This document shows, piece after piece, positions 7,038 to 37,552 of a stretch of DNA of 57,885 bases. Numbering within the stretch: the stretch's first letter is position 1; every line of letters begins with the position of its first letter. A program made the position numbers and the translations under genes. The DNA is from Myxococcota bacterium (GTDB lineage Bacteria; Myxococcota_C; UBA6777), in contig JAKLKB010000026.1 of NCBI GenBank assembly GCA_023150835.1, forward strand, positions 1 to 57,885, written 5' to 3'. Under the pieces are notes generated by a model, which was not told where the DNA came from, searched no databases, and was given only the letters and a program-made list of their open reading frames with translations.

Positions 7038-7343
7038 CTACGAATCCTTCGGTACACACTCACCTCGGAGCGACGACCCAGAGGGGGCGCTCTCCGAACA
7101 TTTTGGGCGACCTACGTTGAAGCACTTCCCACAATCGCGATTGTTCGAGCAAGAGACGACACCAGCGCAACTATCTTGGTCGACACATCCGCCGCCAACG
7201 CACGCTTGACCTGCGATGCAATCATCGGTTGTTCGGCAAGGCTTGTAGGCGAGTTCACAAAAGCATCGCGTCAACGACAGCAACAAAAAGCAACAAAAAA
7301 ACCAACCCCACAACAAGCGGCGTGTTCGCATCGATCTCTGCAT
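7038..7343 (-). CDS. Small secreted Cys-rich protein
   Basis: A 101-residue protein with a basic N-terminus and one hydrophobic signal (LLWGWFFCCFLLLSLTRCF), possibly lipidated at one of its early cysteines. The rest is Cys-rich, with spacing like the Cys-rich repeats elsewhere in this window (CRTTDDCIAGQACVGGGC). It ends 18 bases before the stop side of the next minus-strand gene region and converges with the PEGA gene. It is small, and no exact family is assigned. Coding is supported by the signal plus ordered cysteine pattern. Confidence 0.6.
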   Translation of the reverse strand: MQRSMRTRRLLWGWFFCCFLLLSLTRCFCELAYKPCRTTDDCIAGQACVGGGCVDQDSCAGVVSCSNNRDCGKCFNVGRPKCSESAPSGSSLRGECVPKDS

Positions 7344-7361
7344 CTTTCCGAAAAGCCTCCA

Positions 7362-10175
7362 TCATCGGGGGTTTGGAGCAGCCGCTTTTTTGGCCTCTTC
7401 GACGGCTTTTGACAAACGCTGGATATCTGTCTGAAAAACACCTAAGCGCTGTTTCATTTGTTGCTCTTGCTCTGTCAGCCGCTCTCCAAGCGATTTCAAG
7501 ATCTGCATCGCAGACGGAAGCGTCGAAGAGACGTTGTCCACCGCCATACGAAAGGTCTTTGCGTCCTTTTCCATCTCTCGCAAGCGGCCTTCTGTTTGCG
7601 TAGAAAACTTCTTGAGTAGCTCAAGCGCTTCTTGGATCGGCTTGAGATCCGCTGCGATCCGCGTGAACATCCAACTTCGCGCTTCCGATTCGGCCACCAA
7701 ACGCTTCATTTGTTCTTTGTTTTTGGTATCTTCCGCCACAAGGCGCGCCAGCGCTGCGGGCAGCGGGAACAATATCTTTTGCGTCGCCGCCAATTGGCGA
7801 GAGAGCTGTTGTGCGCGCTGTTGCAACGCATCCAACGAAGCCTTGTGCGCCTCAAGCTGTCGTACTGCTTTTTCCGACGCTTGCTGTAATGCTGTGTCTT
7901 TTGCTTCAAGGGCCTGATGGCGGTTGTCTGCTTGCGCTTGTGCTTGTTGCACCGTCTTGTCAAGCCGCGCCAAAGCCTCGGCCTCGCTCTGGATGCGCGT
8001 GCTGTGTTGTGCGAGGATCTTGCCTTGCGACGCCAAAGCCCCTTGCATCGCTTTTTGCAACAATTGCAACGCGGAGATCTGTTGTTGTTGACCCGCGATC
8101 CGCGCCAAAAGCTCCTTGTGGCGGGAGGCTTGCTTTTCTTGTTCTTCTTTGGCTCGATCTTCCGAGGCTTTCAACGCACGCGATAGATCCGCCAATTGTT
8201 GCTTTAATTGCCCGATCTCGCTACCTTGGCTTTTCCTCGCTCCCTCCAAGCCTTCGACACGCCCCGCCACAGGCGTCACCATCGAACGCGCCCCCTTCAA
8301 CAACATCTCAGGATCAAGAGGCGGCCAAACCAAACGCGCCCCCAACAACCCCACCAAAAAGATCCCCACCAACACCCCCACCACTTTTCCCAACGGCATC
8401 CCTCCCATCACAGCAGGAGGCATCAAAGAATTCGCTGCCACCGCAGCTTGAGAAAGCTCACTCCCCGTCGATGAACTCGTCGGTTTTGTCGCCTGCTCCG
8501 AGGTGCTCTTTTCTGTAACCTTCGCTGGTTCCGATGCTTTCGCAGCTTCTGTAACCTTCGCTGGTTCCGTTGCTTTCGCGGCCTCTGTAATCTTCGTAAT
8601 CTTCTCTGGTTCCGATGCTTTCGCAACTTCTGTAACCTTCGCTGGTTCCGTTGCTTTCGCAGCTTCTGCAACCTTCGTAAACTTCGCTGGTTCCGCTGCT
8701 TTCGCAGCTTCTGTAATCTTCGCTGGTTCCGCTGCTTTCGCAGCTTCTGCAACCTTCGCTGGTTCCGTTGCTTTCGCAGCCTCTGTAATCTTCGTAATCT
8801 TCGCAGGTTCCGCTGCTTTCGGAGCTTCTGCAACCTTCGCTGGTTCCGCTGCTTTCGGAGCTTCTGTAATCTTCGCTGGTTCCGCTGCTTTCGGAGCTTC
8901 TGTCACCTTCGCAGGTTCCGCTGCTTTCGGAGCTTCTGCAACCTTCGCGGGTTCCGCTGCTTTCGGAGCTTCTGCAACCTTCGCGGGTTCCGCTGCTTTC
9001 GGAGCTTCTGTAACCTTCGCGGGTTCCGCTGCTTTCGGAGTTTCTGCAACCTTCGCGGGTTCCGCTGCTTTCGGAGCTTCTGCAACCTTCGCGGGTTCCG
9101 CTGCTTTCGGAGCTTCTGCAACCTTCGCAGGTTCCGTTGCTTTTGGAGCTTCTGTCACCTTCGCGGGTTCCGCTGCTTTCGGAGCTTCTGCAATCTTCGC
9201 AGGTTCCGTTGCTTTTGGAGCTTCTGTAATCTTCGCAGGTTCCGTTGCTTTCGGAGCTTCTGCAACCTTCGCGGGTTCCGTTGCTTTCCGAGCTTCTGTC
9301 ACCTTCGCGGGTTCCGCTGCTTTCGGAGCTTCTGTAATCTTCGCAGGTTCCGCTGCTTTCGGAGCTTCTGTCACCTTCGCGGGTTCCGCAGCTTTCGGAG
9401 CTTCTGCAATCTTCGCGGGTTCCGCTGCTTTCGGAGCTTCTGTAATCTTCGCAGGTTCCGTTGCTTTCGCAGCCTCTGTAATCTTCGCAGGTTCCGTTGC
9501 TTTTGGAGTATCAGAAGGTTTGTTGGAAAAGCTGTCTGTTTTTGGCGCGGAGGAGCGGGACAAAGAAAGAGAGGGTTTCGGTGGTTCGGTCGGTTTCGTT
9601 GGCTCTGTGGGGACTGGCGGGGTGGCTTTTTTAGAGGAATCTGTCGAGGTTGTGGATGCGGATGATTGGGCAGGATCGATGGCTTTTAAGGAGGCCATGC
9701 TTGGGGAGGTTTTTTGTGAGGAGAGGGGATCGTCAGGAGTTGTTTTGGATGGGGGTGGTTTGAATGCCTCTGTTTTGGTGGTGGGGCTGGTGGTGGAGTA
9801 CGAAGTGCGGGCAGGCAAGGAGTCCGAGGAGATCGTCTTGATCGCACCGAGCGAGCCGCTCGAACGGCTAGGCGAGGTGTTCCCTGAAGAGATGGGGCTG
9901 GTTGTAGGTTTGGTGGGCGTTGGGATCGGAGAGCGAGTATTTGTGGGTGGGGGTATCTTCTCGGTGGTTGCAGGAGAAGAAGCTGCGGGGGTTTTGGAGG
10001 GGGAAGGCTCGCTTTGGGAGAGGTTGGAATTCAAAAACGAGTCGATGTTGGTATCGTTGCCAAGCAGCGCATCAAGATCGCCAAGCCCCTCGAAGAGATC
10101 TTCTTGTGCAGCAGGGGGCTTACTTGAGGGAGTGAGTGGATGGGCTTGCGCGTTCTCTTTTTTCGATGAAGTCAT
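7362..10175 (-). CDS. Repeat-rich membrane protein with C-terminal coiled coil
   Basis: A 937-residue protein. The ATG at 10175 is preferred over an upstream in-frame ATG at 10265 because AGGTGAG precedes it. The N-terminal about 250 residues are Ser/Pro/Thr/Lys-rich and disordered. Then come 27 copies of a 12-residue Ala/Pro/Lys/Glu repeat. One membrane helix follows (VVGVLVGIFLVGLLGARLVW), then about 300 residues of heptad-rich coiled coil (Gln, Ala, Leu, Glu, Lys), such as LQQRAQQLSRQLAATQK. The layout recalls TolA or FimV-like proteins, in which a long flexible arm carries an anchor and a coil, but no sequence family is recognised. The topology (repeat arm inside or outside) cannot be read with certainty. 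Confidence 0.8.
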   Translation of the reverse strand: MTSSKKENAQAHPLTPSSKPPAAQEDLFEGLGDLDALLGNDTNIDSFLNSNLSQSEPSPSKTPAASSPATTEKIPPPTNTRSPIPTPTKPTTSPISSGNTSPSRSSGSLGAIKTISSDSLPARTSYSTTSPTTKTEAFKPPPSKTTPDDPLSSQKTSPSMASLKAIDPAQSSASTTSTDSSKKATPPVPTEPTKPTEPPKPSLSLSRSSAPKTDSFSNKPSDTPKATEPAKITEAAKATEPAKITEAPKAAEPAKIAEAPKAAEPAKVTEAPKAAEPAKITEAPKAAEPAKVTEARKATEPAKVAEAPKATEPAKITEAPKATEPAKIAEAPKAAEPAKVTEAPKATEPAKVAEAPKAAEPAKVAEAPKAAEPAKVAETPKAAEPAKVTEAPKAAEPAKVAEAPKAAEPAKVAEAPKAAEPAKVTEAPKAAEPAKITEAPKAAEPAKVAEAPKAAEPAKITKITEAAKATEPAKVAEAAKAAEPAKITEAAKAAEPAKFTKVAEAAKATEPAKVTEVAKASEPEKITKITEAAKATEPAKVTEAAKASEPAKVTEKSTSEQATKPTSSSTGSELSQAAVAANSLMPPAVMGGMPLGKVVGVLVGIFLVGLLGARLVWPPLDPEMLLKGARSMVTPVAGRVEGLEGARKSQGSEIGQLKQQLADLSRALKASEDRAKEEQEKQASRHKELLARIAGQQQQISALQLLQKAMQGALASQGKILAQHSTRIQSEAEALARLDKTVQQAQAQADNRHQALEAKDTALQQASEKAVRQLEAHKASLDALQQRAQQLSRQLAATQKILFPLPAALARLVAEDTKNKEQMKRLVAESEARSWMFTRIAADLKPIQEALELLKKFSTQTEGRLREMEKDAKTFRMAVDNVSSTLPSAMQILKSLGERLTEQEQQMKQRLGVFQTDIQRLSKAVEEAKKAAAPNPR
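8510..9503 (-). repeat. 36-bp tandem repeat (27 units) inside the membrane-protein gene
   Basis: Twenty-seven units encode KA[AT]EPAK followed by [VI][TA]EA[PA]. Three units near the membrane side carry an extra three residues (TKI or TKV, a 9-base insertion). The middle units are the most alike at DNA level, and units toward the membrane helix are more varied. The reading frame is kept throughout. Because the array has few stop codons in any frame, the opposite strand shows a long false reading frame. Confidence 0.93.
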
Positions 10176-10535
10176 GTGCTCACCTGTGATCCTGTAGAAT
10201 GTTATCGAAGAACCCCGATAGTGGCTGTTGCAAAAAGATCCCGAGACGCTATCACAAGCGAACAAAAGACGCTAGAACCGCTCTGCCCAACTTGACGGGG
10301 CGTTGCACTGTTCCATCCAACAGCATCGCTCCTGTGAGGGGTCACGCAGCTTTTGCGAGAACAGATGCCTTGCCAGAAAACAAGTCCAACGTCGTGGCTC
10401 CTCTGTACAAAAGAAAAGAATTCAGTAAGGTTCCTTTGTTGCCGCTTGACAGGTGGCGCATGAAAGAAAAGGGCAAGACAGGCAAGACAAGTCTTTTGTT
10501 TGCTGGTTCAATCGTTGATAAAACGGGAGGTTTTC

Positions 10536-11798
10536 GTGACAAGGCAAATCTTTTTGATCGTTATCGCGCTGGTGACGGGTGTCGTGTTGGCGCGCAGTCA
10601 CAGCGCTTGTGTGTTTGGCGTATCGGTCTGCGAGTACGACGGTAAACAGTACAGCGAGGGCCAACGCTTCGATGCGAAGGACGGTTGTAACACCTGCGTA
10701 TGCAGCCAAGGGAAAGTAATGTGTACGTTGATGGCGTGTACACACTGCACCTACGATGGGAAAAAACACGACGACGGAGCCTCATTTGCTGCGACTGATG
10801 GTTGCAACACTTGCACATGCAACAAAGGGCAAGTGGGTTGCACCAAGATGAATTGCAACAAGACCTGCACCAGCAAAGACACCAGCAAGTGCGGAGGTGG
10901 CGAGTTTTGTGCGTTCGATGCAGGATCGTGTGGCCGTAGTGAGCAAAGAGGTCAATGCAAGGCCAAGCCGCTCGCGTGTGACGCCCAGTACGATCCCGTA
11001 TGCGGCTGCGATGGCAAGACTTACAGCAACGCCTGTAACGCCGAGACATCGGGATCTTCGGTGGATTACAAAGGCATCTGTGTAACAGGTTCGTGTAGTC
11101 ACCTTGGTCATGCCTATGCAGACGGATCGACCTTCCCGAAGGGGGATGGTTGCAACACTTGTACGTGTACCAACGGCAAAGTGGGATGCACAGAAAAAGC
11201 CTGTCCACCGCCGCAAGAGTGCGGAGGGATCCAAGGTGCGGTCTGCCAAAACAAAGCAGAGATGTGCATCCTGCCCAACGGAAGCTGCAAAACAGCCGAG
11301 GCCAAGGGGAATTGCCAGATCCGTCCCCAAACTTGCCCCCAATCTCTCGATCCAGTTTGCGGATGTGACGGAAAGACTTACAACAACGCCTGTGCAGCGC
11401 ACGTTGCGAACGTACAGATCGATTACACAGGGAAATGCAAAGAAGTCTACAAATGCACCTACGACAACAAACTGTACAACGATGGCGAATCTTTCCCATC
11501 GAGCGACGGTTGTAATGCCTGTACTTGCCGTGAGGGAAAAGTCATGTGTACGTTGCTTGTTTGTCCACAGCCTTGTGGGGGTAGTGGGACAGCGGCGTGT
11601 CCAGCGGGGCATTATTGCAACTACAACGACGGAAAATGCGGCGAGATGAACACCAAAGGCATCTGCGCTCCACAGCCCAATATGTGCGACGAAACCAACG
11701 CCCAAGTATGCGGCTGCAACAACACCACTTATCAAAACGCCTGTAAAGCCGCAGCAGCGGGAATTTCCGTCAAGTCGAACGGCGCTTGCACGAAGTAA
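10536..11798 (+). CDS. Secreted Kazal/VWC-like multidomain Cys-rich protein
   Basis: A 420-residue protein. The start is taken as GTG at 10536 because GGGAGG lies five bases before it and a signal peptide follows directly (QIFLIVIALVTGVVLA). A TTG at 10500 would add 12 residues. Four VWC/pacifastin-like modules share the pattern YDGKxYxDGxxFxxxDGCNTCxC. They alternate with three Kazal-type protease-inhibitor modules (DPVCGCDGKTYSNAC and two variants, the last weaker: QVCGCNNTTYQNAC), each preceded by a short Cys module with FCxFxxGxC-like spacing. Kazal domains usually inhibit serine proteases, and a secreted trypsin-like protease is encoded 2.6 kb downstream, so self-protection or protease control is one inference. 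Confidence 0.85.
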   Translation: MTRQIFLIVIALVTGVVLARSHSACVFGVSVCEYDGKQYSEGQRFDAKDGCNTCVCSQGKVMCTLMACTHCTYDGKKHDDGASFAATDGCNTCTCNKGQVGCTKMNCNKTCTSKDTSKCGGGEFCAFDAGSCGRSEQRGQCKAKPLACDAQYDPVCGCDGKTYSNACNAETSGSSVDYKGICVTGSCSHLGHAYADGSTFPKGDGCNTCTCTNGKVGCTEKACPPPQECGGIQGAVCQNKAEMCILPNGSCKTAEAKGNCQIRPQTCPQSLDPVCGCDGKTYNNACAAHVANVQIDYTGKCKEVYKCTYDNKLYNDGESFPSSDGCNACTCREGKVMCTLLVCPQPCGGSGTAACPAGHYCNYNDGKCGEMNTKGICAPQPNMCDETNAQVCGCNNTTYQNACKAAAAGISVKSNGACTK

Positions 11799-17381: not shown

Positions 17382-20132
17382 ATGCAAGTGTGTTGGCAAC
17401 AAGCTCTGCGCTTTGGCGTAGGTGCGATGATTGGTGTGTTGTGTGTATGGATGCTCACAGGCCCAACGGCGGTCTATGCGTGGAATCCGCTTGTTTTGAA
17501 TGGCGCTTGTGCCGAAAAGGGGACGCCTTGCAGTTCGACCGTCGGCAACGCAGGCGGCGAAAATGCCTGTTGCGATCCCGCAAACCCCCGAGCAGGCGGC
17601 TACAGCAGCGTTGAACAATGCGCAACGCGAAACGCTTGCGCAGGCGGGCGACCCTATAGATGGCTGAATCTTCCTGTGGTGTGGTTTTGGAACCCCAACG
17701 GACTCTCAGCGGGCTTTCGTAGTCGCAACGAGGCGCAGTATGAAAGCGCACTCAAGGCCGCTTGGGATGCTTGGAACAAGCCGACGTGTACCTCTTTTCA
17801 ACACCGCTACGGCGGACGCACCACCAAAGGCGGCGATCGCAACGACAAAACCGTCGTGATCTACTTCCCCACACAAACCGAATGGGCGCAGTTTGGGGCG
17901 GGAAACTCGACCCTCGCCTTTGCACGACCCAACCCCACAAGCAGCGATGGCCGCCTTGAAGATGGAGATGTGATCTTCAATCCCAACGTGGGCTGGGGTA
18001 CTTCACCCGTTCAACGTTCGGAGTACGACTTTCTCGCCGTAGCAGCGCACGAGATCGGCCATGCCATCGGCCTCGGACATAGCCAGTTTACGGGCGCTTT
18101 GATGTACTACGCAACACGCGGTAGCGGCGAAGAATGGAGCCGCTTGGGTGGAAAACTTCCCGCCGATGATGAAACAGCCATCTGTACGACCTATCCAAGC
18201 CTCAACTGCGCCCAACCCTCGGACTGTGGGGGATGTTTTACTTGTGGCACAGGCGGAAAGTGCGTCATCAAATCGATCCCACTGGCTCGCAATCTGTGTA
18301 AACCATGCACAAAGCCCGATGATTGCGGTGGATTGCAAGATATCTGTGTCCGAACCCCCGATGGCAACCGTTGCGCCCAATCCTGCGACAACAACGGCTG
18401 TTGCCCAGACGGATATCGCTGTTCTGATGTCGGAAACGGCCTGCGGATGTGCATCCCCGACTCAGGCCGCTGCCCCCCCATCTCGTGTACAACCTCCGCC
18501 GAATGCGGCCCGGGAGAGCAATGCGCCAACGGCACATGTTCCCCCCCTGTTGTCTCCCTAAAGTCGGGCGTTTGCACGCTCTGCCCCAAAGGCACCTGCC
18601 CCAACCAAACAGGGTGCTTTGATATCGATGGCGAAAAACGATGCCTCCAACCTTGCGTCGCTGACAACTTCTGCCCACAAGGCTATGTCTGCGGATTGTC
18701 TAGCACCTTGGGCCGCCAATGCGTACCTGAAAAAGGATTCTGCGCTTGCACCAAAGACGAGGACTGTCCCCCCACCCAACGCTGCGAAAGCGGAAACTGC
18801 CGTATCCCGGGTGGCGGAAAATACTTTGATATCTGCACTGACAAAAAGCCCTGTGGCCCCGGCTACAACTGCCTCGAACTCCAAAATGGCAACAAAGCCT
18901 GCCTTCAACTTTGCGGGGCCAACGCCCCTCCCCACTCAGGACTCCCCGGCACCCCGGGCGCTCCCTGCAACAACGGCCAATGCTCCCAAGGCGCTCAGTG
19001 TTTTTCTCTAGGTGCGGGGAGCAATGTCTGCTTTCCTGAGTCCTGCAACAACGGTGTCTGCACCAGCGGCGGTCAATGCTTCCAGATCCCCCGCGTAGGC
19101 AACAACTGCCTTTGTCAAAAAGATGGCGACTGCACCACAGGCTTTTGCAACACCGCGATCCTCAGCCAGATCTTTGGCGGTTCCTACGGTGCTTGCGCTC
19201 CCAAACCTGACAACTACCCGTGCGAAAAAGACTTTTTGTGCCTTGACTTTTCCACCAGCAAAGGCTGCACAGGACAAAGCCAAGCCTGCGTTTGTCGCCC
19301 GGGACCCAACGTCAAAACCCGCGCAGTAGGCGACACTTGCAACGCCTATATCGAAGACTGCAAACCCGAAGCCGACTGCGTCGCAAGCAGCAACTCCCCA
19401 CGAGACGGCCTCTGCAACGAACGCTGTAACCCCCGAATCACCGGCCAATGCAAATCAGGCGGAGGTTGTATCATCCAAGGTGCAAACAGCTTTTATTGCG
19501 GTTGCAGCACACAAGTCTCCTGTCCACAAGGCAGCGAATGCCGCAACATCAACCCCTTTACAGGACAAGGTATGTGTGCCAGCGCTGCCCTCGACTGCGG
19601 CAACAAGACCTGCCAAGCCGACAAAGGCGAAGATTGCACCACCTGCCCCGCCGATTGCGCTTGTCAAAATGGCCTCACTTGCCAAACAGGTGCTTGTGTC
19701 GCTGCGGGTTCTTGTGGCAACGGAACCTGCGAAGCTGACAAAGGCGAACACTGCGGCTCTTGCTCCGCCGACTGCGCCTGTCCAAACGGGCAATCTTGTC
19801 AAAACAACACTTGCCAAACCATCCCCACCCAAACCTGCGGAGATGGAAAATGCGAGGCCGACAAAGGCGAACACTGCGGCTCTTGCACCGCTGACTGCGC
19901 CTGTCCAAACGGGCAATCTTGTCAAAACAACATCTGCAAAACGCCCGCTCCTAGCCTGCCCTGCCCCGCCGAGGAACAACGCGAAGAATGCGACGTCGAA
20001 GGCAACAACTGTGCAATGGTTTGCGTCACCCCCAACACAGGCTGCGGATGCCAAAGCACTCCCTTCAACCAACCCGTCCTGTGGTTCGGCCTTTTGTTCT
20101 TTCTGCTGCCCCATCTCCGCCGCAAGCCCTAA
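17382..20132 (+). CDS. Matrixin-like zinc metalloprotease with Cys-rich repeats and MYXO-CTERM-like tail
   Basis: A 916-residue secreted protein, with AAGGAAGAG before the start and a signal peptide ending near VYAW. The catalytic domain (about 90-260) has the metzincin zinc motif HEIGHAIGLGH (His223, Glu224, His227, His233) and a downstream Met (ALMYY, Met241) suited to a Met-turn. The remaining 650 residues are Cys-rich modules that match those of the preceding trypsin-like protein almost block for block (for example CKPCTKPDDCGG, DICVRTPDGNRCAQ). The end carries GCGCQ, a hydrophobic helix and RRK, like MYXO-CTERM. The two genes appear to come from duplication followed by replacement of the catalytic domain. 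Confidence 0.92.
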   Translation: MQVCWQQALRFGVGAMIGVLCVWMLTGPTAVYAWNPLVLNGACAEKGTPCSSTVGNAGGENACCDPANPRAGGYSSVEQCATRNACAGGRPYRWLNLPVVWFWNPNGLSAGFRSRNEAQYESALKAAWDAWNKPTCTSFQHRYGGRTTKGGDRNDKTVVIYFPTQTEWAQFGAGNSTLAFARPNPTSSDGRLEDGDVIFNPNVGWGTSPVQRSEYDFLAVAAHEIGHAIGLGHSQFTGALMYYATRGSGEEWSRLGGKLPADDETAICTTYPSLNCAQPSDCGGCFTCGTGGKCVIKSIPLARNLCKPCTKPDDCGGLQDICVRTPDGNRCAQSCDNNGCCPDGYRCSDVGNGLRMCIPDSGRCPPISCTTSAECGPGEQCANGTCSPPVVSLKSGVCTLCPKGTCPNQTGCFDIDGEKRCLQPCVADNFCPQGYVCGLSSTLGRQCVPEKGFCACTKDEDCPPTQRCESGNCRIPGGGKYFDICTDKKPCGPGYNCLELQNGNKACLQLCGANAPPHSGLPGTPGAPCNNGQCSQGAQCFSLGAGSNVCFPESCNNGVCTSGGQCFQIPRVGNNCLCQKDGDCTTGFCNTAILSQIFGGSYGACAPKPDNYPCEKDFLCLDFSTSKGCTGQSQACVCRPGPNVKTRAVGDTCNAYIEDCKPEADCVASSNSPRDGLCNERCNPRITGQCKSGGGCIIQGANSFYCGCSTQVSCPQGSECRNINPFTGQGMCASAALDCGNKTCQADKGEDCTTCPADCACQNGLTCQTGACVAAGSCGNGTCEADKGEHCGSCSADCACPNGQSCQNNTCQTIPTQTCGDGKCEADKGEHCGSCTADCACPNGQSCQNNICKTPAPSLPCPAEEQREECDVEGNNCAMVCVTPNTGCGCQSTPFNQPVLWFGLLFFLLPHLRRKP

Positions 20133-20396
20133 CCACCGCCTTGTTCACAACGCCCACGCCACAGAAAAAAGAAAGAACAGAATAAGTGGGTGGCCCGATA
20201 CGTCTTTTAGCGTGCTGAAAAGCAGGTGGCTTGTTCGTGATCGCATCACCTCCAACAAACACAACGCTTTTCCCCGCAAGGCGCCAGACAGAAAAGGACG
20301 AGAGACCGCCATGGAGGCACAACGCACCCAACAAGACGTTCGCCCTTTCCCCGCACAAGCCCGTGCATTCTTCACCACTTGCGTCGAGATAAAGCC

Positions 20397-23300
20397 ATGA
20401 GAAATTACCGTTCCAGCGATTCCATCGAGGCTTTCGTTTTTAACGAAGAAACTCTCCACGCAGGAACCCGAGAAACACCCGCTGCTCTTCCTACGCACAC
20501 TCTTGCTGCCCTCACGCAACCCACCCTCTTGCACGAAGTCTTTGAGCGCCAAGTACGCCTCACCCCCGACAACGTGGCTGTCGAGTTTTTTGAAAAACGA
20601 CAACAACTCACCTACCGACAACTCAATGAAAAAGCCGATGCCATCGCAGTCCTATTGAAAGAACGTGGAATCAAAGCCAACGAGATCGTCGGACTTTATC
20701 TGCCCCGCAGCATCGAGCTTTACATCGCGATGCTCGGCATACTCAAAGCCGGAGGAGCTTATCTCCCGATCGATGTCGAATTTCCCGAAGAACGTATCCT
20801 CTTTACACTCGAAGATGCCGAAGCCCGCTTGGTGATCACGCACCAGCCGCTACTTCAACGCCTACAAAACAGCCCGAGCGAACCTCTTGAAATCCAAGAG
20901 TTGTTGCTGCAAGCCACCCAAATCACCCAAGACGATATCTGGCAGATCCGACAACAACGTGGAAATCCCCAAGATCTTTGTTATATCATCTACACTTCTG
21001 GCACAACAGGCCGTCCCAAGGGCGTTTGCATCTCTCACCTCAACGTCATGACGTTCGTTCAAGCGATCATCGATTTGTACGAGATGAACGAACAAGATCG
21101 CGTACTGCAAGGCTTTTCGACCGCGTTTGATGCCTCCCTCGAAGAGATCTGGATGGCCTTTTCCGCAGGCGGAACCTTGGTGATCGGCACACAAGACACC
21201 ATGCGCGCCGTCGACGAACTCCCCCACAAGCTCCGAGAAATGGAGATCTCCGCTTTCTCCACCGTCCCGACATTGCTCGGCGTCATGGCCAAAGAAGAAC
21301 TCCCCGCCTTGCGCCTGTTGATCTTTGGTGGAGAAGCCGCCCGCGCAGACATCATCGAAAAATGGGCGGCTCCACACCGGCGATTGATGAACGGCTACGG
21401 GCCGACCGAGTGTTCCGTAGTCTGCACCTTTACATGGTGTCAGCCCCACGAACCCGTCACCATCGGCGGCCCCCTCCCTCGCTACGAGATCGCCGTCATG
21501 GACGCCCAACTTCAAAAAGTCCCGCACGGCCAAGAAGGCGAACTGTGCGTCGGAGGCCCCGGCGTCTCTTTGTTGGGCTATCTGAAACGTCCCGATCTGA
21601 ATAAAGAAAAATTCTTTACTCAAAACGGCATCCGCTACTATCGGACAGGCGACCTTGTCCGGCTCAACGATCAAGGCAAGCTGCTCTACTTGGGGCGCAT
21701 CGACTCACAAGTCAAGATTCGCGGATACCGCGTAGAACTCGAAGAGATCGAAACACATCTCATCCAAGCGCTTACCCGCACAAACGATCTCAACCATCGC
21801 TGCGAGGGCGCGATCGTCGCCGTTCAACAAGACGAAACGGGCGCCCCCCATCTCGTGGCCTTTTTGCTCCAAGAGCAGCCTTCTCCCTTTTCGATCCAAA
21901 CGCTCTTGGCTCCTTTGCGCGAAAAGATGCCCTCCTACATGATCCCAACGCAGGTCGTCTCGCTCGCCCCCACCGCCATCCCGCGCATGAACAGCGGAAA
22001 AGTCGATCGCCGCGCACTACCCGCCTTTTCTGCCTGCACAGCCTTGAGCCACGAAGCCGCCGATACCTCGTGGGATTCTCCCCTCGCAGAGGGCGCTTCG
22101 ACAGAACAACGCCTTCACCATATCTGGCGCAGCGTCCTACAACAGCCGATCGGCCTCGAAGACTCCTTCTTTGATTGGGGCGGAAACTCCGTTCTTGCCG
22201 CCCAAGTCATCTCGCGCTGCCGCCAAGACGCCGAACTCTCGATCCTCAGCATCCGCGATCTCTATCAACATGAAAATGTTCGTAAATTACTTCTGCGCTT
22301 GCGCGAGCGCCAACAAGCCTTGCGCCCCCAAAACGCTCCAAACCAAGCGTCTTTCACTGACGCCTCCACCCACACAGGCTCCCAAGCTCTCCCCAAACCC
22401 TACCGCGTGGCTTACACCAAGTTTTTGGCGGTTGCCACTTCGCAGCTTGCCTTGATGCTGGTGGGTCTGCTCGCTGGCTCGATCTTCTTCTTTGGCAGCA
22501 TCTACACCGCCTTCCATCTGACCAAACAGACCTACAACGCCTCGCCTGCTCAGCTCCCCTCCTTCGGCCCGCTGCTGTGGGTCGGGGCCGCGATCGCATT
22601 CTTCTTGCTTTTGCCTGCGCTATTTTTTGTCGGTGGCGTGTTCTGGGCGCTCTTTGTCAAGTGGGTATTGGTGGGACGATTTGAAGAAGGAGATTATCCT
22701 GTTTGGAGTTGGGGATATTTCCGATGGTGGATCCATAAAACCCTGATGGGTCCTGCCCGAGCCTTGGCCGAATCTTTTGTGGGGACGCCCTTTGCGCCGT
22801 TCTTTTATCGCATCTTGGGCGCAAAGATCGGAAAAGACGTATACATCGGCATTCCGCTTCACGAACCCGACCTGCTCACGATCGGAGACGGAGCCACTCT
22901 TTCGGATGGCGCGAACCTTCGCACGCATGCGTTTGAGCGTGGCATCCTCAAACTGCGGCGCATCCATATCGGTGCGCATACATTTGTCGGTTCACAAGCC
23001 ATCGTACGAGGTGGGGCGCGGATGGAAGAAGGCTCTCGCCTGCATCCGCTTTCTTGCCTGATCGAAAACACCGTCTGTCCGCCTTCTTCCGAATGGCGTG
23101 GCTCTCCTGCCGCGCCGATCCAAGAACCCACCAACCTAACCACGCTGCTCGACCAACACGACCAACAAACTCGTCCCGAGGCTGGCTGGGGACGTTTCCG
23201 AGATCGTCTGAGTGTCTTCTTTTGGCAATCCGCCTACTCTTACGTCTTTCAGCTCATCCGCAGCGTCCCTTACCTGATTGAATTTGCTGCATTACTGGCC

Positions 23301-24605
23301 CTACAGTACACAACAGGCGCAGTCCTCGCGCTCAACCTCTGGATCTTGCTCCCTGCCACCTTGTTGTTCTCAACGCTGCGTTTCTATCTGTTGCTCGCAT
23401 CGATCATCGCTGCAAAGTGGCTGCTCACAGGCCGCGCCGTCGCTGGAACGTACGCGATCAACAGCCGAGAGTTTGTGAAACGCTGGTTTACAGCGCGCCT
23501 GATGCACTTGTTTGTCGATCCGGGCGGAACTCGCGGTGTCACCGAAACGATGCTGATGCCCTACGCTTGCCGTTGGTTGGGCATGAAAGTTGGGAAGAAC
23601 TCGGAGATATCGGATGCTCGCGGATGGCAGCCTGATCTGATCTCGATCGGTGACGGCGTGATGATCGCGGACGCTTGTTATATCGGCGCTCCTGTGATCC
23701 ATCGCGGTCTGATCACCTTGGCAGAAGTGCAGATCGGAGATCGCTGCTTTGTCGCCAACGCCGCACACATCCCGATCACCACCCCCCGCGTGGAAAACGG
23801 TTGCCTTGTCGGTGTTCTCTCCATCGCGCCCGATAAAATGGAAGTCGGAAGCGACTGGTTGGGTTCTCCTCCCATGCGACTTCCTCGCCGTATTCGTCAT
23901 ACTCCTCCCGATGCGCTCACATGGCATCCTCCCAAACATCTGATCATCGCACGCGGCATCTTCAACTATTTCAAGATGGTCACACCCGGAATGCTCCCCG
24001 AGATGCTCTTTTGGATCACGCTCAAGATCAGCGTCCTCGCTTACTTGAGCGCCTCGCTGGCGGCCTTCTTCCTGCTGTTTCCCCTGATCATGTTTGCCTC
24101 GACCTTCGCCACATTGATGTTGCCTGTCGCCGCCAAGTGGCTTTTAATCGGCCGCTACAAAAGCGGCGAACGCTTCTTTTGGACGTATTGGATGTGGCGC
24201 TCCGAAGTGGCCTACGAGATCGAACTCTTCATCATGTCCAGCTTTGGCGAAGCCCTTGGAGGAACCCCGCTCATGGCTTGGTGGTACCGCATCAAAGGAA
24301 CCCAGATCGGCAAAGCCGTTTGTATCTTTGGAGGTGTCGTCATGGAGGCCGATCTCACAACGATTGGAGATTACACCTGCATCGAAGGATTCTTACAAAC
24401 TCACCTGTTCGAAGATCGCGTCATGAAGCTCGATGAAGTCCGTATCGGCTCCGATTGCACCGTTGGAAACGAAGCTTGCGTTCTCTATTCCTCGAAGATG
24501 GGCGACTGCTCCAGCCTCGCTGATCTTTCGCTGATTATGAAAAGCGAAACCTTCTTACCGAACCACCACTACCGTGGTATCCCCGCAGAAAACGTCCCCG
24601 CTTAA
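20397..24605 (+). CDS. Pls-type (epsilon-poly-lysine synthetase-like) NRPS membrane enzyme
   Basis: A 1402-residue single-module synthetase. The adenylation domain (about 45-540) has YTSGTTGRPKGV (A3), NGYGPTE (A5), YRTGDL (A7), the core GYRVELEEIE (A8) and NSGKVDRRAL (A10). The carrier domain has WGGNSVL with Ser598 for the phosphopantetheine arm. There is no condensation or thioesterase domain. The rest alternates three pairs of membrane helices with three left-handed-beta-helix-like segments (for example AKIGKDVYIGI, MKVGKNSEISD, TQIGKAVCIFG). This is the layout of Pls, which joins lysines by isopeptide bonds at the inner membrane. Reading the pocket residues by hand gives D245, A246, E249, S288, I309, G311, G333, V341, V342, K535. 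ATG 20397 is chosen; an alternative TTG lies at 20379. Confidence 0.88.
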   Translation: MRNYRSSDSIEAFVFNEETLHAGTRETPAALPTHTLAALTQPTLLHEVFERQVRLTPDNVAVEFFEKRQQLTYRQLNEKADAIAVLLKERGIKANEIVGLYLPRSIELYIAMLGILKAGGAYLPIDVEFPEERILFTLEDAEARLVITHQPLLQRLQNSPSEPLEIQELLLQATQITQDDIWQIRQQRGNPQDLCYIIYTSGTTGRPKGVCISHLNVMTFVQAIIDLYEMNEQDRVLQGFSTAFDASLEEIWMAFSAGGTLVIGTQDTMRAVDELPHKLREMEISAFSTVPTLLGVMAKEELPALRLLIFGGEAARADIIEKWAAPHRRLMNGYGPTECSVVCTFTWCQPHEPVTIGGPLPRYEIAVMDAQLQKVPHGQEGELCVGGPGVSLLGYLKRPDLNKEKFFTQNGIRYYRTGDLVRLNDQGKLLYLGRIDSQVKIRGYRVELEEIETHLIQALTRTNDLNHRCEGAIVAVQQDETGAPHLVAFLLQEQPSPFSIQTLLAPLREKMPSYMIPTQVVSLAPTAIPRMNSGKVDRRALPAFSACTALSHEAADTSWDSPLAEGASTEQRLHHIWRSVLQQPIGLEDSFFDWGGNSVLAAQVISRCRQDAELSILSIRDLYQHENVRKLLLRLRERQQALRPQNAPNQASFTDASTHTGSQALPKPYRVAYTKFLAVATSQLALMLVGLLAGSIFFFGSIYTAFHLTKQTYNASPAQLPSFGPLLWVGAAIAFFLLLPALFFVGGVFWALFVKWVLVGRFEEGDYPVWSWGYFRWWIHKTLMGPARALAESFVGTPFAPFFYRILGAKIGKDVYIGIPLHEPDLLTIGDGATLSDGANLRTHAFERGILKLRRIHIGAHTFVGSQAIVRGGARMEEGSRLHPLSCLIENTVCPPSSEWRGSPAAPIQEPTNLTTLLDQHDQQTRPEAGWGRFRDRLSVFFWQSAYSYVFQLIRSVPYLIEFAALLALQYTTGAVLALNLWILLPATLLFSTLRFYLLLASIIAAKWLLTGRAVAGTYAINSREFVKRWFTARLMHLFVDPGGTRGVTETMLMPYACRWLGMKVGKNSEISDARGWQPDLISIGDGVMIADACYIGAPVIHRGLITLAEVQIGDRCFVANAAHIPITTPRVENGCLVGVLSIAPDKMEVGSDWLGSPPMRLPRRIRHTPPDALTWHPPKHLIIARGIFNYFKMVTPGMLPEMLFWITLKISVLAYLSASLAAFFLLFPLIMFASTFATLMLPVAAKWLLIGRYKSGERFFWTYWMWRSEVAYEIELFIMSSFGEALGGTPLMAWWYRIKGTQIGKAVCIFGGVVMEADLTTIGDYTCIEGFLQTHLFEDRVMKLDEVRIGSDCTVGNEACVLYSSKMGDCSSLADLSLIMKSETFLPNHHYRGIPAENVPA

Positions 24606-24644
24606 ATCACCACCACTGGGTATCCCCGCAGAAAACGCCCCCGA
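24563..24644 (+). repeat. Tandem duplication of the 3' end of the synthetase gene
   Basis: The last coding bases of the Pls-like gene (24563-24601) are repeated immediately after its stop (24610-24644) with a four-base deletion and few substitutions. Both share GTATCCCCGCAGAAAACG. The second copy is non-coding and abuts the stop of the convergent gene, so it may be a slippage or deletion scar. Confidence 0.8.
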
Positions 24645-25457
24645 TCAAAAAAGAGTGGGGATTTGTACAGAAAAAGCAGGCAAGAGCGCAGGACACCGCG
24701 ATAGACAAACCAACGACTCGTGCAGGTGCTTGGCCGCCCAATACAGTTGCGCCACCACCTTCGCGGGTTCTTGCGTTTCTTGAAGGGCTAATGTGGGTAT
24801 TTTTTCTGACGTATGAAAAAGGCCCGCATCCTCAGTACTTGTTCTCGCTTCTTTTCGATTTTCCTCCGTAAGCAACGAACAAATGTTCGGCCTCACAACA
24901 TCCGACGGCGAAAACCCAAGAGAGGCCAACTGCTTTTGATAACGCCAAAAAAGACTTTCCAAACCACGTGCAGACCAGCCGGGCAAATAATCGTATGGCG
25001 GCGGTGGGAGTTCAAAGTCCGGCAAGCGCACACGGCGCAGCCCCTCATCCAAAAACCCGCGTAAAGCAGATGCTGTCGTCGGCAATGGCCCGTTCATCCC
25101 CAACCAAGACAAGACTTCTTCACCGTACGAAGCCACAAGATGCTGACGCAAGTGTTCGATCTCTCGCAAAAGCTCCCCCAAACGCCGCTGCCGCTCATTT
25201 TCGCCAACGTCCTCTTGCGACGCTTCGCGCAACAACGCCCCTTCCCAACCCAACAGCGCGATCTCTAACCGCGCACGCAACGCTGCAACAAAACCTTCGA
25301 TGTGCTCTTGCACCTGAAAGGGATCGAGATCGGATGTCATCGTGCTTTGAACGCGTTCCACCGCGACATACAGCAGATGCGGTACATGAACCTGCAAGTC
25401 TCGCAACAACGCACGTACTTGCTCGACAGAAGGGGGGCGGAAAGGATGCTCGATCAT
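24645..25457 (-). CDS. Hypothetical helical protein
   Basis: A 270-residue cytosolic protein. The ATG at 25457 is preferred over an upstream in-frame start at 25538 because CAGGAGTT lies just before it. The sequence is rich in Leu, Glu, Arg and Gln and predicted helical (EQVRALLRDLQVH, QRRLGELLREIEHLRQHL). A Pro-rich string lies in the middle (ELPPPPYDYLPGW). No signal peptide, membrane helix, catalytic motif or known family is seen. It converges on the synthetase gene. Confidence 0.6.
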   Translation of the reverse strand: MIEHPFRPPSVEQVRALLRDLQVHVPHLLYVAVERVQSTMTSDLDPFQVQEHIEGFVAALRARLEIALLGWEGALLREASQEDVGENERQRRLGELLREIEHLRQHLVASYGEEVLSWLGMNGPLPTTASALRGFLDEGLRRVRLPDFELPPPPYDYLPGWSARGLESLFWRYQKQLASLGFSPSDVVRPNICSLLTEENRKEARTSTEDAGLFHTSEKIPTLALQETQEPAKVVAQLYWAAKHLHESLVCLSRCPALLPAFSVQIPTLF

Positions 25458-25575
25458 CGTTGAAAACTCCTGCACTTTGCCATCGCAAAACGTCCGCGCC
25501 CCACGCAAACGACACACCACACCAACCCACCCAAACAAACCTACACGAACATACGAAGATCTCTACGCTTTTTCA

Positions 25576-25690
25576 CAACTCCTGTTTTTTATTTGGACGC
25601 TCCGAACGCAGATCTGTCCAAGTTTTGGACAGGCCGACGTTTGAGATCTGGACAGACGAGTGTCTCGAATCTGAACAGTCATACGATACC
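25576..25690 (+). promoter_or_regulatory. Cluster of GGACAG-type repeats with a perfect palindrome
   Basis: CTGTCCAA-GTT-TTGGACAG (25614-25632) is a perfect palindrome. Around it, TTTGGAC...CCGA..CG...GATCTG is repeated twice, and GATCTG or AATCTG followed by [GA]ACAG appears twice more to about 25680. The cluster lies in the 494-base space between the divergent hypothetical gene and the transglutaminase-like gene, where operators would sit. The same TCTGTCCAAG string recurs in R2 copy B at 25796. Either an operator array or a decayed repeat is possible. Confidence 0.4.
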
Positions 25691-25740
25691 CGAGTGATGT
25701 ACACAGAGGAGAATACGTAGACGCCTTGTGCTTGGGCAGA

Positions 25741-25828
25741 ACAGGGGGCTGCCTCACCCTTTTTACGATCACACAACGGGCGGATCTCGTACCACTTCTG
25801 TCCAAGATCCGAACAAGGGTTGCTTGGA
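25741..25828 (+). repeat. R2 dispersed repeat, copy B
   Basis: From GGCTGCC at 25747 the sequence aligns without gaps for 45 bases to 35624-35668, sharing TTACG[AG]TCACAC and GGGCGGAT[CT]TCGTA, then continues with looser similarity (GTCCAA, GAACA, CTTGGA) to 25828. It is intergenic, upstream of the transglutaminase-like gene. Copy A is at 11849 and a shorter relative at 57747. Confidence 0.7.
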
Positions 25829-29047: not shown

Positions 29048-29153
29048 TCCCCCTCCATAGCCTCCCTCGAATAGTCTCCCTCACCACCACGCCCCACCAA
29101 GCCAACAAGCCGCTCCTCTCTCTCATAAGACTTACGCAGTTGCCAGAAAAATC

Positions 29154-29244
29154 CGTGTTCGTGACACTTCAAGCGAGAGAGTCGCTGATTTGAAAGACAG
29201 TGATCTCTTCGCCCGTACGGGGTCAAGGGGCCTTCGGTCGCCTG
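29154..29244 (-). repeat. R1 dispersed repeat, copy 4 (reverse orientation)
   Basis: Read on the minus strand, a block starting CCCCGTACGG and ending CGAACACGG (29222 to 29154) lines up with the 70-base core of the plus-strand R1 copies, one base shorter. It keeps CGCTTGA and CACGAACACG and is followed by ATTTTTCTGG. The hairpin side is at 29225-29244, and a further perfect hairpin ATGGGGC-AGC-GCCCCAT lies at 29251-29267. The motif ACTTACGCAGTT just beyond (29130) recurs at 43396. Confidence 0.65.
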
Positions 29245-29330
29245 CGGGGCATGGGGCAGCGCCCCATAGGCGTTAGGTGAAGCCACATCTCGCGGGCATC
29301 ACGCAGAGGATATCGAAAAGAAGAGTTCAC

Positions 29331-29582
29331 GGAAATCACGGAAATCACGGAAAATACGGAAAGCACGGAAATCACGGAAATCACGGAAATCACGGAAATC
29401 ACGGAAAGTTCGGAAAGCACGGAAAGCACGGAAAGTTCGGAAAGCACGGAAAGTTCGGAAAGCACGGAAAGTTCGGAAAGTTCGGAAAGCACGGAAAGTT
29501 CGGAAAGTTCGGAAAGCACGGAAAGCACGGAAAGTTCGGAAAGCACGGAAAGTTCGGAAAGCACGGAAAGTACGGAAAGTGC
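29331..29582 (+). repeat. 9-bp minisatellite, 28 units
   Basis: Twenty-eight exact-length units of GGAAA followed by four variable bases. Early units are mainly GGAAATCAC; later ones switch irregularly between GGAAAGCAC and GGAAAGTTC. The array has no stop codons in several frames on both strands, giving false repetitive reading frames (KHGKFGKHG-like or FRTFRAF-like). No ribosome site or flanking coding character supports translation. It lies in the 916-base space between the transglutaminase-like and outer-membrane-type genes. Confidence 0.95.
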
Positions 29583-29963
29583 GGCGACGGGGTTTCTCTG
29601 TGCGCTCAGACTTTCTGCCTTCCTCCCCCTCGCGGCAGCAGCGAGGCTTTGCGAGCGTCGCAGGGAGAGGAGACGCCCGAAGGGCAGGGGTGAGCGTCAC
29701 GCGATTTGTCCCCCAGTAAGAGCCAAAGACCGTGAACAGGGGAGGGAGAGAAAGTCGGAGGCAGCGAGGTTTTGGTGTTCCATGCCACACGCTGTTTGCA
29801 CGAGAGAGCGTCTTTGCCTGCTCCAACTTCCCCCCGTGAACAGGGGGGATTGAGGGGGGGGCGAGCAAAAGAAAAGGCGATCAAGACCGACTCGACGAGG
29901 TTTCCACCTTCACCTAACGCTTATGAGGCAGCGCTCCACAAAAACCTTCCAACCGCGCAAGTT
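29583..29963. other. Intergenic stretch with G/C-run hairpins, no gene
   Basis: No gene is supported here. The stretch has a perfect hairpin CCCCCC-GTGAACA-GGGGGG at 29830-29848, and a related CCGTGAACAGGGGAGGG at 29730-29746, so it contains two copies of a GTGAACAGGGG motif. CTCGC...GCGAG and CGCCCGAAGGGC-like short inverted repeats lie at 29627-29685. The string CTTCACCTAACGC at 29908-29920 is the reverse complement of GCGTTAGGTGAAG at 29270-29282, so the 9-bp array is bracketed by a short inverted repeat. Confidence 0.6.
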
Positions 29964-35714: not shown

Positions 35715-36107
35715 TCAAAGAGCCGTGAGCTGGCCCAAGACGCTGCTGGTGATATGGAGAACCCACGTCTGGAAATCTTCTTCCGAGATATCTTGCAATT
35801 CTTTACACGAAGGCTCGATAAAATGCTCCAAGAGGATCTCTTGATCGAGAGAACGTTTAAGGAATTGTTGGCAAGCGCTGCGTTCGCAGCGATGGTGACA
35901 TCCAGCAAGACCGATGAGGGACTTGGCTTGGCGGGCGAGTTGAAGAGCGTGAGGTAATTCGGCCATCAGAGGGACGAGATCGATGATATCGATATCGTCG
36001 ATCTGTTCGCGCAAAAGTTGTGCGACGCGTTGAGTGAGTTGGCCGCGTAGCGTATGCCCATTGCAAGGGACAAGGATCACAGAAGCAGCAGAAACAGACG
36101 GAGGCAT
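35715..36107 (-). CDS. Small DGC-type (putative zinc-binding) protein
   Basis: A 130-residue cytosolic protein of the DGC/putative zinc-binding type. The N-terminal strand carries VPCNGHTLRGQLTQRVAQLL. The middle has a cluster, LAGCHHRCERSACQQFL, in the place where the family has GC...C. These Cys/His residues are the expected metal or persulfide site. It is the last gene of the minus-strand sulfur-carrier cluster, 38 bases after the preceding gene. DGC proteins have no settled biochemical role, but here all neighbours are sulfur carriers. Confidence 0.7.
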   Translation of the reverse strand: MPPSVSAASVILVPCNGHTLRGQLTQRVAQLLREQIDDIDIIDLVPLMAELPHALQLARQAKSLIGLAGCHHRCERSACQQFLKRSLDQEILLEHFIEPSCKELQDISEEDFQTWVLHITSSVLGQLTAL

Positions 36108-36145
36108 CGGGGACTCCTAAGGAAGAAAGAAAGCAACCATGCACC

Positions 36146-36538
36146 TTAAAGAGAGACAGCTTTGTGCGTGATCAACAAAGAGGCGAGTTTGGTCAGCCCT
36201 GCTTGTGTGACACAAGAGCGCAAGCCGCCGACTTGATGGGCTTGAGGCGGGAGCGCGGCTTGGGTTTCTTCGGCACAACTCGCACAGACATAGATCTGCC
36301 CGCCCGCTTCTTCGAAAAGTTTGGTGTAGATATCGAGTCGATCAAAACCGGGGATATGGATGCTTTGAAGAACCGATTCAAACGCCCAGATCGCAGCTTG
36401 TGCGTGCAAAAAGACGACAACTTCTTCGCCCATCGCTTGGAGAGAAACCGCCAAAGCAAAGGCCAATGTCGCACGAGAACCACCGTCTTCTTGGCCGTGT
36501 GTCAGGACGATGAGATGCCCTTTGGGTGTTTTTGTCAT
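36146..36538 (-). CDS. DsrE-family sulfur-carrier-like protein (first copy)
   Basis: A 130-residue protein with the DsrE fold pattern: a beta strand and glycine turn (HLIVLTHGQEDGGSRAT), the strand GEEVVVFLHAQAAIW, and a Cys-containing strand IYVCASCAEET at about 79-89 where DsrE proteins hold the persulfide cysteine. A further Cys lies at GGLRSCVTQAG. DsrE and TusD proteins pass sulfane sulfur between partners. It is nine bases from the stop of the preceding DsrE-type gene, so the two are surely co-transcribed and may form a hetero-oligomer. Confidence 0.82.
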   Translation of the reverse strand: MTKTPKGHLIVLTHGQEDGGSRATLAFALAVSLQAMGEEVVVFLHAQAAIWAFESVLQSIHIPGFDRLDIYTKLFEEAGGQIYVCASCAEETQAALPPQAHQVGGLRSCVTQAGLTKLASLLITHKAVSL

Positions 36539-36547
36539 AGATAATCC

Positions 36548-36931
36548 TTAAAAAACAGTAACTTGTCCTTTAATCATAATCTCTGCGACACTGGAGAGGC
36601 CGGCATAATGGGCACCTTTGCGCAGCGATTGGCGAAAAGCGTTGCTGTCCATGGTGGGAAGAAAACAATAAGCATCCAAGCAAGGCGAACACACAAGCAC
36701 GGGTCCGCCTTGTTCGAGATAAGTGCTGAGATACGTTGCGAGCGTGGGTTCGTCAGCGAGTTGGACATCTTCGCCCGTCCCTTCAAAAGCCCACCGGGTA
36801 CCCGAGAGAGTCAGAAAAATACTTACATGGCAGTCCATGGCTTGTAAAGCAAGAGCGAGTTTGGTTCCAAGCAAAGCGGCTTGACCGCCGTCTTCGCGAC
36901 CGCGTGTGATGATGATCAGATGAGGTTGCAC
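36548..36931 (-). CDS. DsrE-family sulfur-carrier-like protein (second copy)
   Basis: A 127-residue paralogue of the next gene. It has LIIITRGREDGGQAALLG at the N-terminus, the strand CHVSIFLTLSGTRWAFEG, and a Cys strand VLVCSPCLDAYC that carries three cysteines, one at the usual DsrE position. It also shares the HYAGLSSVAE-type helix with its neighbour. It lies 30 bases after the DsrE2-type gene. Which of the two is the donor and which the acceptor cannot be told from sequence. Confidence 0.82.
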   Translation of the reverse strand: MQPHLIIITRGREDGGQAALLGTKLALALQAMDCHVSIFLTLSGTRWAFEGTGEDVQLADEPTLATYLSTYLEQGGPVLVCSPCLDAYCFLPTMDSNAFRQSLRKGAHYAGLSSVAEIMIKGQVTVF

Positions 36932-36961
36932 AGGAGACTCCGTAGGAACGGGAAAAAGCGC

Positions 36962-37552
36962 TCAAACCACAAAGAACAGCTTGGATTGGACGGCATCTCC
37001 GAGACAAGAAGTCACACCCGCACACTGGAGATTGGGAAGACCCATGATATCTTCTTCGGTGAAGCCCATGATCTCCATGGTCAGCGTGCAGATGGTGAAC
37101 TTGACACCTGCTTCGACAGCCATATCCATCAGTTGCGGCAAAGAAGAAGAACCCGCTTTTTGCATAAAGTGGCGCATCATCATGGCTCCCATGCCGCCGA
37201 AATTCATTTTGGAGAGGCCGACGCGTGCGGGGCCTTTGGGCATCATCCATCCCATCATACGAGAAAGAAAAGATTTTTTTCTTTCAGGCAAAAGGCTTCC
37301 TTTTTTTCCAAGCGCAGGTTGATGTTTGTCTCGGCGCAAAAGATTCAGTCCCCACAAAGCAAAGAAGATATTGACTTCGAGGCCCATCGAACGGGCGGAC
37401 ATGGCGAGCATAAAAGCGAGAAAGACGCGATCAAAGTCGTCGCTCGATAGCAAGATCGTCATCTGTTGGTTATCCGCAGCAGCGGCATTCATGGCCTTGC
37501 TTTGCATGGCTTGGGCGAGTTGTCGTGCCAAAGAGTCCGAAGAGACAGACAT
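36962..37552 (-). CDS. DsrE2-type (DsrE/DsrF/DrsH-like) peripheral sulfur carrier
   Basis: A 196-residue protein of the DsrE2 group. It has the early strand MTILLSSDDFDRVFLAFMLA, the following helix and strand GLEVNIFFALWGLNLL, a basic Met-rich loop typical of the group (SRMMGWMMPKGPARVG, MNFGGMGAMMMRHFM), and the Cys strand VKFTICTLTMEIMGF where the sulfur-binding cysteine sits. A further Cys pair lies near the end (LQCAGVTSCL). DsrE2 proteins occur with TusA and rhodanese in sulfur trafficking. It comes 42 bases after the TusA multidomain gene. Confidence 0.87.
   Translation of the reverse strand: MSVSSDSLARQLAQAMQSKAMNAAAADNQQMTILLSSDDFDRVFLAFMLAMSARSMGLEVNIFFALWGLNLLRRDKHQPALGKKGSLLPERKKSFLSRMMGWMMPKGPARVGLSKMNFGGMGAMMMRHFMQKAGSSSLPQLMDMAVEAGVKFTICTLTMEIMGFTEEDIMGLPNLQCAGVTSCLGDAVQSKLFFVV

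Follow-up and report, generated by a model that had tools for sequence, protein, structure and literature searches.

Which amino acid is activated and joined by the large synthetase encoded at positions 20397-24605 (+ strand) of contig JAKLKB010000026.1, from a Myxococcota bacterium (assembly GCA_023150835.1)? The window, that is, the whole stretch of DNA that was analysed, comprises 57,885 nucleotides. Judged by its sequence, the gene product can be assigned to the Pls/PosA family of cationic homopoly(amino acid) synthetases, a known kind of enzyme, as a divergent member: it scored 436.2 bits against NCBIfam TIGR02353 (Pls/PosA family non-ribosomal peptide synthetase, terminal domain), for which the curated cut-off is 423.1. 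By analogy with the characterised enzymes, we regard it as moderately probable that the product is a membrane-bound synthetase of this kind with L-lysine as its most likely monomer. The gene and its parts are:

20397-24605, + strand: whole synthetase gene, 1402 amino acids (open frame; TIGR02353 above curated cut-off; dN/dS about 0.06 against KLAP109)
20526-22031, + strand: adenylation (A) domain, residues 44-545 (PF00501, TIGR01733; A-domain core motifs located)
21129-21422, + strand: nine core pocket positions, D245, A246, E249, S288, I309, G311, G333, V341 and V342 (register set on PosA)
21393-21395, + strand: code position 7, Gly333; Thr in Pls (7WEW) and Thr304 in PosA (family alignment)
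21999-22001, + strand: tenth code residue, K535 (family alignment)
22074-22316, + strand: carrier (T) domain, residues 560-640, with Ser598 at 22188-22190 (PF00550)
22407-22682, + strand: hydrophobic block 1, residues 671-762, two helices (hydropathy)
22698-23141, + strand: soluble domain C1, hexapeptide/beta-helix type (Hexapep above cut-off; family profile against the PDB)
23274-23444, + strand: hydrophobic block 2, residues 960-1016, presumed two helices (hydropathy)
23454-23921, + strand: soluble domain C2, same fold family (family profile against the PDB; profile match to C3)
24003-24149, + strand: hydrophobic block 3, residues 1203-1251, presumed two helices (hydropathy)
24168-24602, + strand: soluble domain C3, with Q1334, H1336 and D1340 (family profile; profile match to C1)

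The gene is real, intact and maintained under strong purifying selection. Its frame is open from an ATG at 20397 (or an alternative TTG at 20379) to a stop ending at 24605. A related Myxococcota metagenome-assembled genome, KLAP109, carries a copy (L009) in which 1348 of the 1402 residues are identical; with a dN of 0.019 and a dS of 0.310 between the two, the gene must be regarded as maintained.

With regard to domain architecture, the sequence-only reading had proposed a Pls-like plan with an adenylation domain, a carrier and three beta-helix-like parts, and this was borne out. Pfam matched the product to AMP-binding (287 bits), PP-binding (33 bits) and Hexapep (34.9 bits); as had been claimed, neither a condensation nor a thioesterase domain was found in this search up to E 1. 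The carrier serine, on which the earlier proposal depended, is present as Ser598 within DSFFDWGGNSVLA, and this column is Ser in all 47 relatives examined. Family profiles of C1, C2 and C3, each built from 23 members, all match hexapeptide/beta-helix proteins of known structure, and the C3 profile matches those of C1 and C2 with hhalign probabilities of 100% and 99.6%, respectively; when the window protein was taken alone, C1 was the only one of the three to pass the Pfam cut-off. The same proposal included six helices: simple hydropathy revealed a long hydrophobic block ahead of each soluble domain, consistent with six transmembrane helices, but did not split blocks 2 and 3 into separate ones. 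The carrier and membrane parts retain 36 of the 37 near-invariant family columns, including Q1334, H1336 and D1340 of C3. A special histidine in C1 was dropped as a candidate, being present in 5 of 50 sequences. Structure predictions of residues 40-640 and 655-1402 from two-sequence alignments gave mean predicted local distance difference test (pLDDT) scores of 31.7 and 32.7, respectively, and no reading was drawn from them.

The substrate code was recomputed by family alignment, with the register set on PosA, the ornithine synthetase of known crystal structure, for which PMC10522769 numbers the pocket residues; the reference was an Acinetobacter baumannii protein (L073) identical to 8G95 across residues 1-412. 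The resulting ten-residue code, DAESIGGVVK (residues 245, 246, 249, 288, 309, 311, 333, 341, 342 and 535), is exactly the one that had earlier been read by hand, and the same alignment returned DMEHNGTVSK for PosA, matching the residues named in that paper. The Asp and Glu expected by the family at code positions 1 and 3 are both present (D245 and E249), and Glu249 fits the role of predicted amine ligand under the rule of PMC10522769. The solved A domain of Pls from Streptomyces albulus (7WEW) displays DAESIGTVV at the nine core positions; eight of these are equal in the window protein, the sole difference being Gly for Thr at position 7. All six members of the Pls-type clade in our panel carry DAESIGTVVK. 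The available text of PMC10522769 states that code position 2 sets the chain length, with Ala for lysine, Met for ornithine and Phe for diaminopropionate or diaminobutyrate; Ala246 therefore points to lysine.

This similarity extends to a wider set of 33 pocket positions, adapted from the published 8-angstrom set. Of the 48 relatives compared, no group comes closer to the window protein within this set than the Pls-coded one (69.2%), yet none is more distant outside it (34.1%), so the pocket is more Pls-like than overall kinship explains. The corresponding values for 12 proteins with the code DSECYGGV(T/V)K are 51.0% and 38.7%. The code, the eight shared core positions and the family score thus support the earlier guess at a cationic isopeptide polymer or oligomer, and from the sequence we take L-lysine, with moderate confidence, as the best single guess at the substrate. 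The bacitracin lysine-module code that the earlier reading had cited for comparison was not confirmed, as the string was not found in our literature search; the available text of PMC7179176 does state that the lysine pockets of Pls and bacitracin are conserved. None of six code strings was found in that search, whose coverage did not extend to the supplementary code table of PMC10522769.

Several observations weigh against lysine. Gly333 lacks the hydroxyl side chain that Pls and PosA present at code position 7, and elsewhere in the panel Gly occupies this position only in the 12 DSECYGGV(T/V)K proteins. According to the available text of PMC10522769, the T304A exchange in PosA costs 33-fold, the threonine helping substrate binding, and Bdello_A, whose code is DSECYGGVTK, showed modest activation of L-arginine and did not activate any of the four known diamino acids well. 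The A-domain tree places the gene next to the DSECYGGV(T/V)K group rather than Pls, both on 50 rows (Shimodaira-Hasegawa-like approximate likelihood ratio test, SH-aLRT, 89) and on 30 rows (support 94/92). The A domain is 35-37% identical to those of the Pls-type panel proteins, and the membrane part 25-26%. Finally, no obvious operon with a pldII-like peptidase gene, as described for Pls in Streptomyces and Corynebacterium (PMC8117764), was found at the locus.

Part of this evidence favours the main rival to lysine, namely the same kind of synthetase acting on a longer or bulkier basic amino acid, such as arginine, a modified lysine or another homologue, since Gly at position 7 would enlarge the pocket. 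This Gly is common only to the DSECYGGV(T/V)K group, towards which the A-domain tree also leans and one tested protein of which showed the modest L-arginine activation mentioned above. In contrast, code positions 2, 4, 5 and 9 match Pls rather than that group, similarity across the wider pocket is 69% to Pls against 51% to the group, and the published arginine activity was modest. We consider such a monomer possible but rather unlikely.

The membrane-part tree set the gene beside the DSECYGGV(T/V)K group at 86 on 29 rows and gave no settled placement on 49 rows. When the gene was held with Pls in a topology test, the arrangement was not rejected (approximately unbiased test, p-AU 0.07). The same test weakly rejected a grouping with the DAESIGTVIK proteins (p-AU 0.033); one of these, G633, is the closest relative by identity outside the genus (43% in the A domain). 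The branch of the window gene is long in all trees, and kinship therefore does not decide the substrate. The gene also fails the cut-off of 40% identity over 80% of the length that PMC8117764 applied for Pls proper, as compared with the Pls-type panel proteins rather than the full S. albulus Pls. No relatives closer than the known ones were found in about 1,565 genome look-ups, repeats included, and a scan of genome contigs for near relatives returned KLAP109 only. The code and tree tables omit L082 (another non-ribosomal peptide synthetase frame) and L060 (the same gene as L009); L067 (cut frame) was left out of the membrane part, and L087, cut at a contig end, had no usable frame.

Ornithine, beta-lysine, diaminobutyrate and diaminopropionate, all substrates of known relatives in the available text of PMC10522769, appear improbable as the monomer of the window synthetase. 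Position 2 is Ala, not the Met of ornithine codes or the Phe of diaminobutyrate and diaminopropionate codes, and four of the ten positions differ from the published beta-lysine code, DGESISVVNK. Phe-type codes adjoin genes for a diaminobutyrate aminotransferase (L069, L071) or a class-III aminotransferase (L056) (neighbours were viewed for part of the panel), so the panel agrees with the position-2 rule where neighbours tell the substrate; no aminotransferase gene was found among the Pfam-annotated neighbours of the window synthetase. Least probable of all is a repurposed enzyme of the same plan that attaches a single basic residue or short chain to an acceptor in the envelope and makes no free polymer: the long branch and the acyltransferase-like fold family of C1-C3 would suit it, but the retained near-invariant columns, C3 residues included, and the absence of a visible partner gene at the locus argue against it.

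The catalytic steps can be proposed by analogy. In the available text of PMC9205021, the monomer is activated by adenylation in the A domain of Pls and held on the carrier, from which the C domains link it to an acceptor that diffuses freely; at no point is the growing chain bound covalently. As 36 of the 37 near-invariant columns are kept, the same cycle is expected here. If the window enzyme works as Pls and PosA do, its A domain would adenylate a basic diamino acid and load it onto the phosphopantetheine of Ser598, and the membrane-embedded C1-C3 would form a bond between the carboxyl of this monomer and a side-chain amine, either on a free monomer or on a chain; repetition of this step would yield an isopeptide-linked polymer or oligomer. 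We infer the loading, the polymerisation, the side-chain linkage and lysine as the substrate, as well as any antimicrobial role.

No substrate-telling neighbour or obvious operon was found around the gene from the Pfam matches of its neighbours, and posA is likewise reported without an obvious operon in the available text of PMC10522769. The same-strand upstream genes are trypsin-like and matrixin; the matrixin-like gene contains repeats towards its 3' end (19596-19940), which appeared as secondary matches against KLAP109. Downstream lie a short opposite-strand gene without a Pfam match and a transglutaminase-like gene. The flanks are mostly collinear with KLAP109, which is without 24609-25791 and 29101-29931 of the window; the first of these stretches contains an open reading frame (ORF) of 297 amino acids (24645-25538, - strand), with no Pfam match. 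Promoter-like sites were no more frequent than by chance (one found, 2.6 expected). The genome has two matches to the phosphopantetheinyl transferase family. Elsewhere in the window, 10500-11798 (+ strand) encodes a protein in which Pacifastin (four stretches), Kazal and VWC (three stretches) all pass Pfam cut-offs; these are inhibitor and adhesion domains better known from animals. A run of small ORFs of about 130-200 amino acids, two with similar starts, at 35715-37552 (- strand) is perhaps a tandem gene family.

With regard to distribution, the family was present in all five genomes examined of the source's GTDB phylum (11 matches, of which nine lie in long synthetase frames and six are above the curated cut-off) and, at E 1e-50, in 5 of 381 other genomes of a domain-wide sample. 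The codes in the source phylum are DAESIGGVVK (this genus), DFECLSAVTK, DFECLGTITK, DSECYGGVTK and DAESYGAVTK. A bolder proposal is that the window gene, from a small phylum-level group in which all five genomes examined carry such synthetases, represents a family lineage of its own, in which the exchange of Thr for Gly at position 7 of an otherwise lysine-type pocket allows an isopeptide polymer of a basic amino acid new to the family; we hold this to be unlikely, if conceivable.

Other relatives showed features of their own. Stand-alone proteins of 231-242 amino acids (L043:1384-2112, also L061:4700-5428, and L045:1462-2157) match the last third of TIGR02353 only, corresponding to a C3-like unit that lacks both A and T domains. 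The synthetase with the mixed code DAESYGAVTK (L058:3214-7275) has a stop overlapping the start of a flavin amine oxidase gene (7275-8466), whose product might be a partner that modifies the monomer or the polymer. A short class-II tRNA-synthetase-like gene (L057:314-1336), which we read as EpmA-like from its length, lies directly upstream of a DSECYGGVTK synthetase. GNAT acetyltransferase genes immediately downstream of two Phe-type synthetases (L053:2565-3017 and L055:11383-11847) possibly serve self-protection.

Membrane enzymes of the Pls/PosA type link basic amino acids into antimicrobial chains. Until PosA, Actinomycetes were the only reported source of such polymers, according to the available text of PMC10522769 (2023), and no paper linking these synthetases to Myxococcota was recognised in our literature search, mostly judged by title; the present gene adds an uncultured Myxococcota lineage to the range of the family. 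In comparison with the delta-poly-L-ornithine synthetase PosA of A. baumannii (8G95; PMC10522769), it shares the domain plan, the pocket Asp and Glu and the lack of obvious operon partners, and differs in code (DMEHNGTVSK in PosA), with identities of 38% in the A domain and 27% in the membrane part. With Bdello_A-type synthetases (DSECYGGVTK; PMC10522769), it has Gly at position 7 in common and is possibly a sister group in the A-domain tree, whereas code positions 2, 4, 5 and 9 differ and its pocket resembles theirs less than that of Pls. With S. albulus Pls (7WEW), it shares the domain plan and all core pocket positions except one, and differs from it in lacking a visible pldII-like operon, in falling outside the Pls clade in the free tree (a placement with Pls being not rejected) and in carrying Gly for Thr at position 7, which singles out this position as a clean question: whether Gly keeps lysine or widens the choice.

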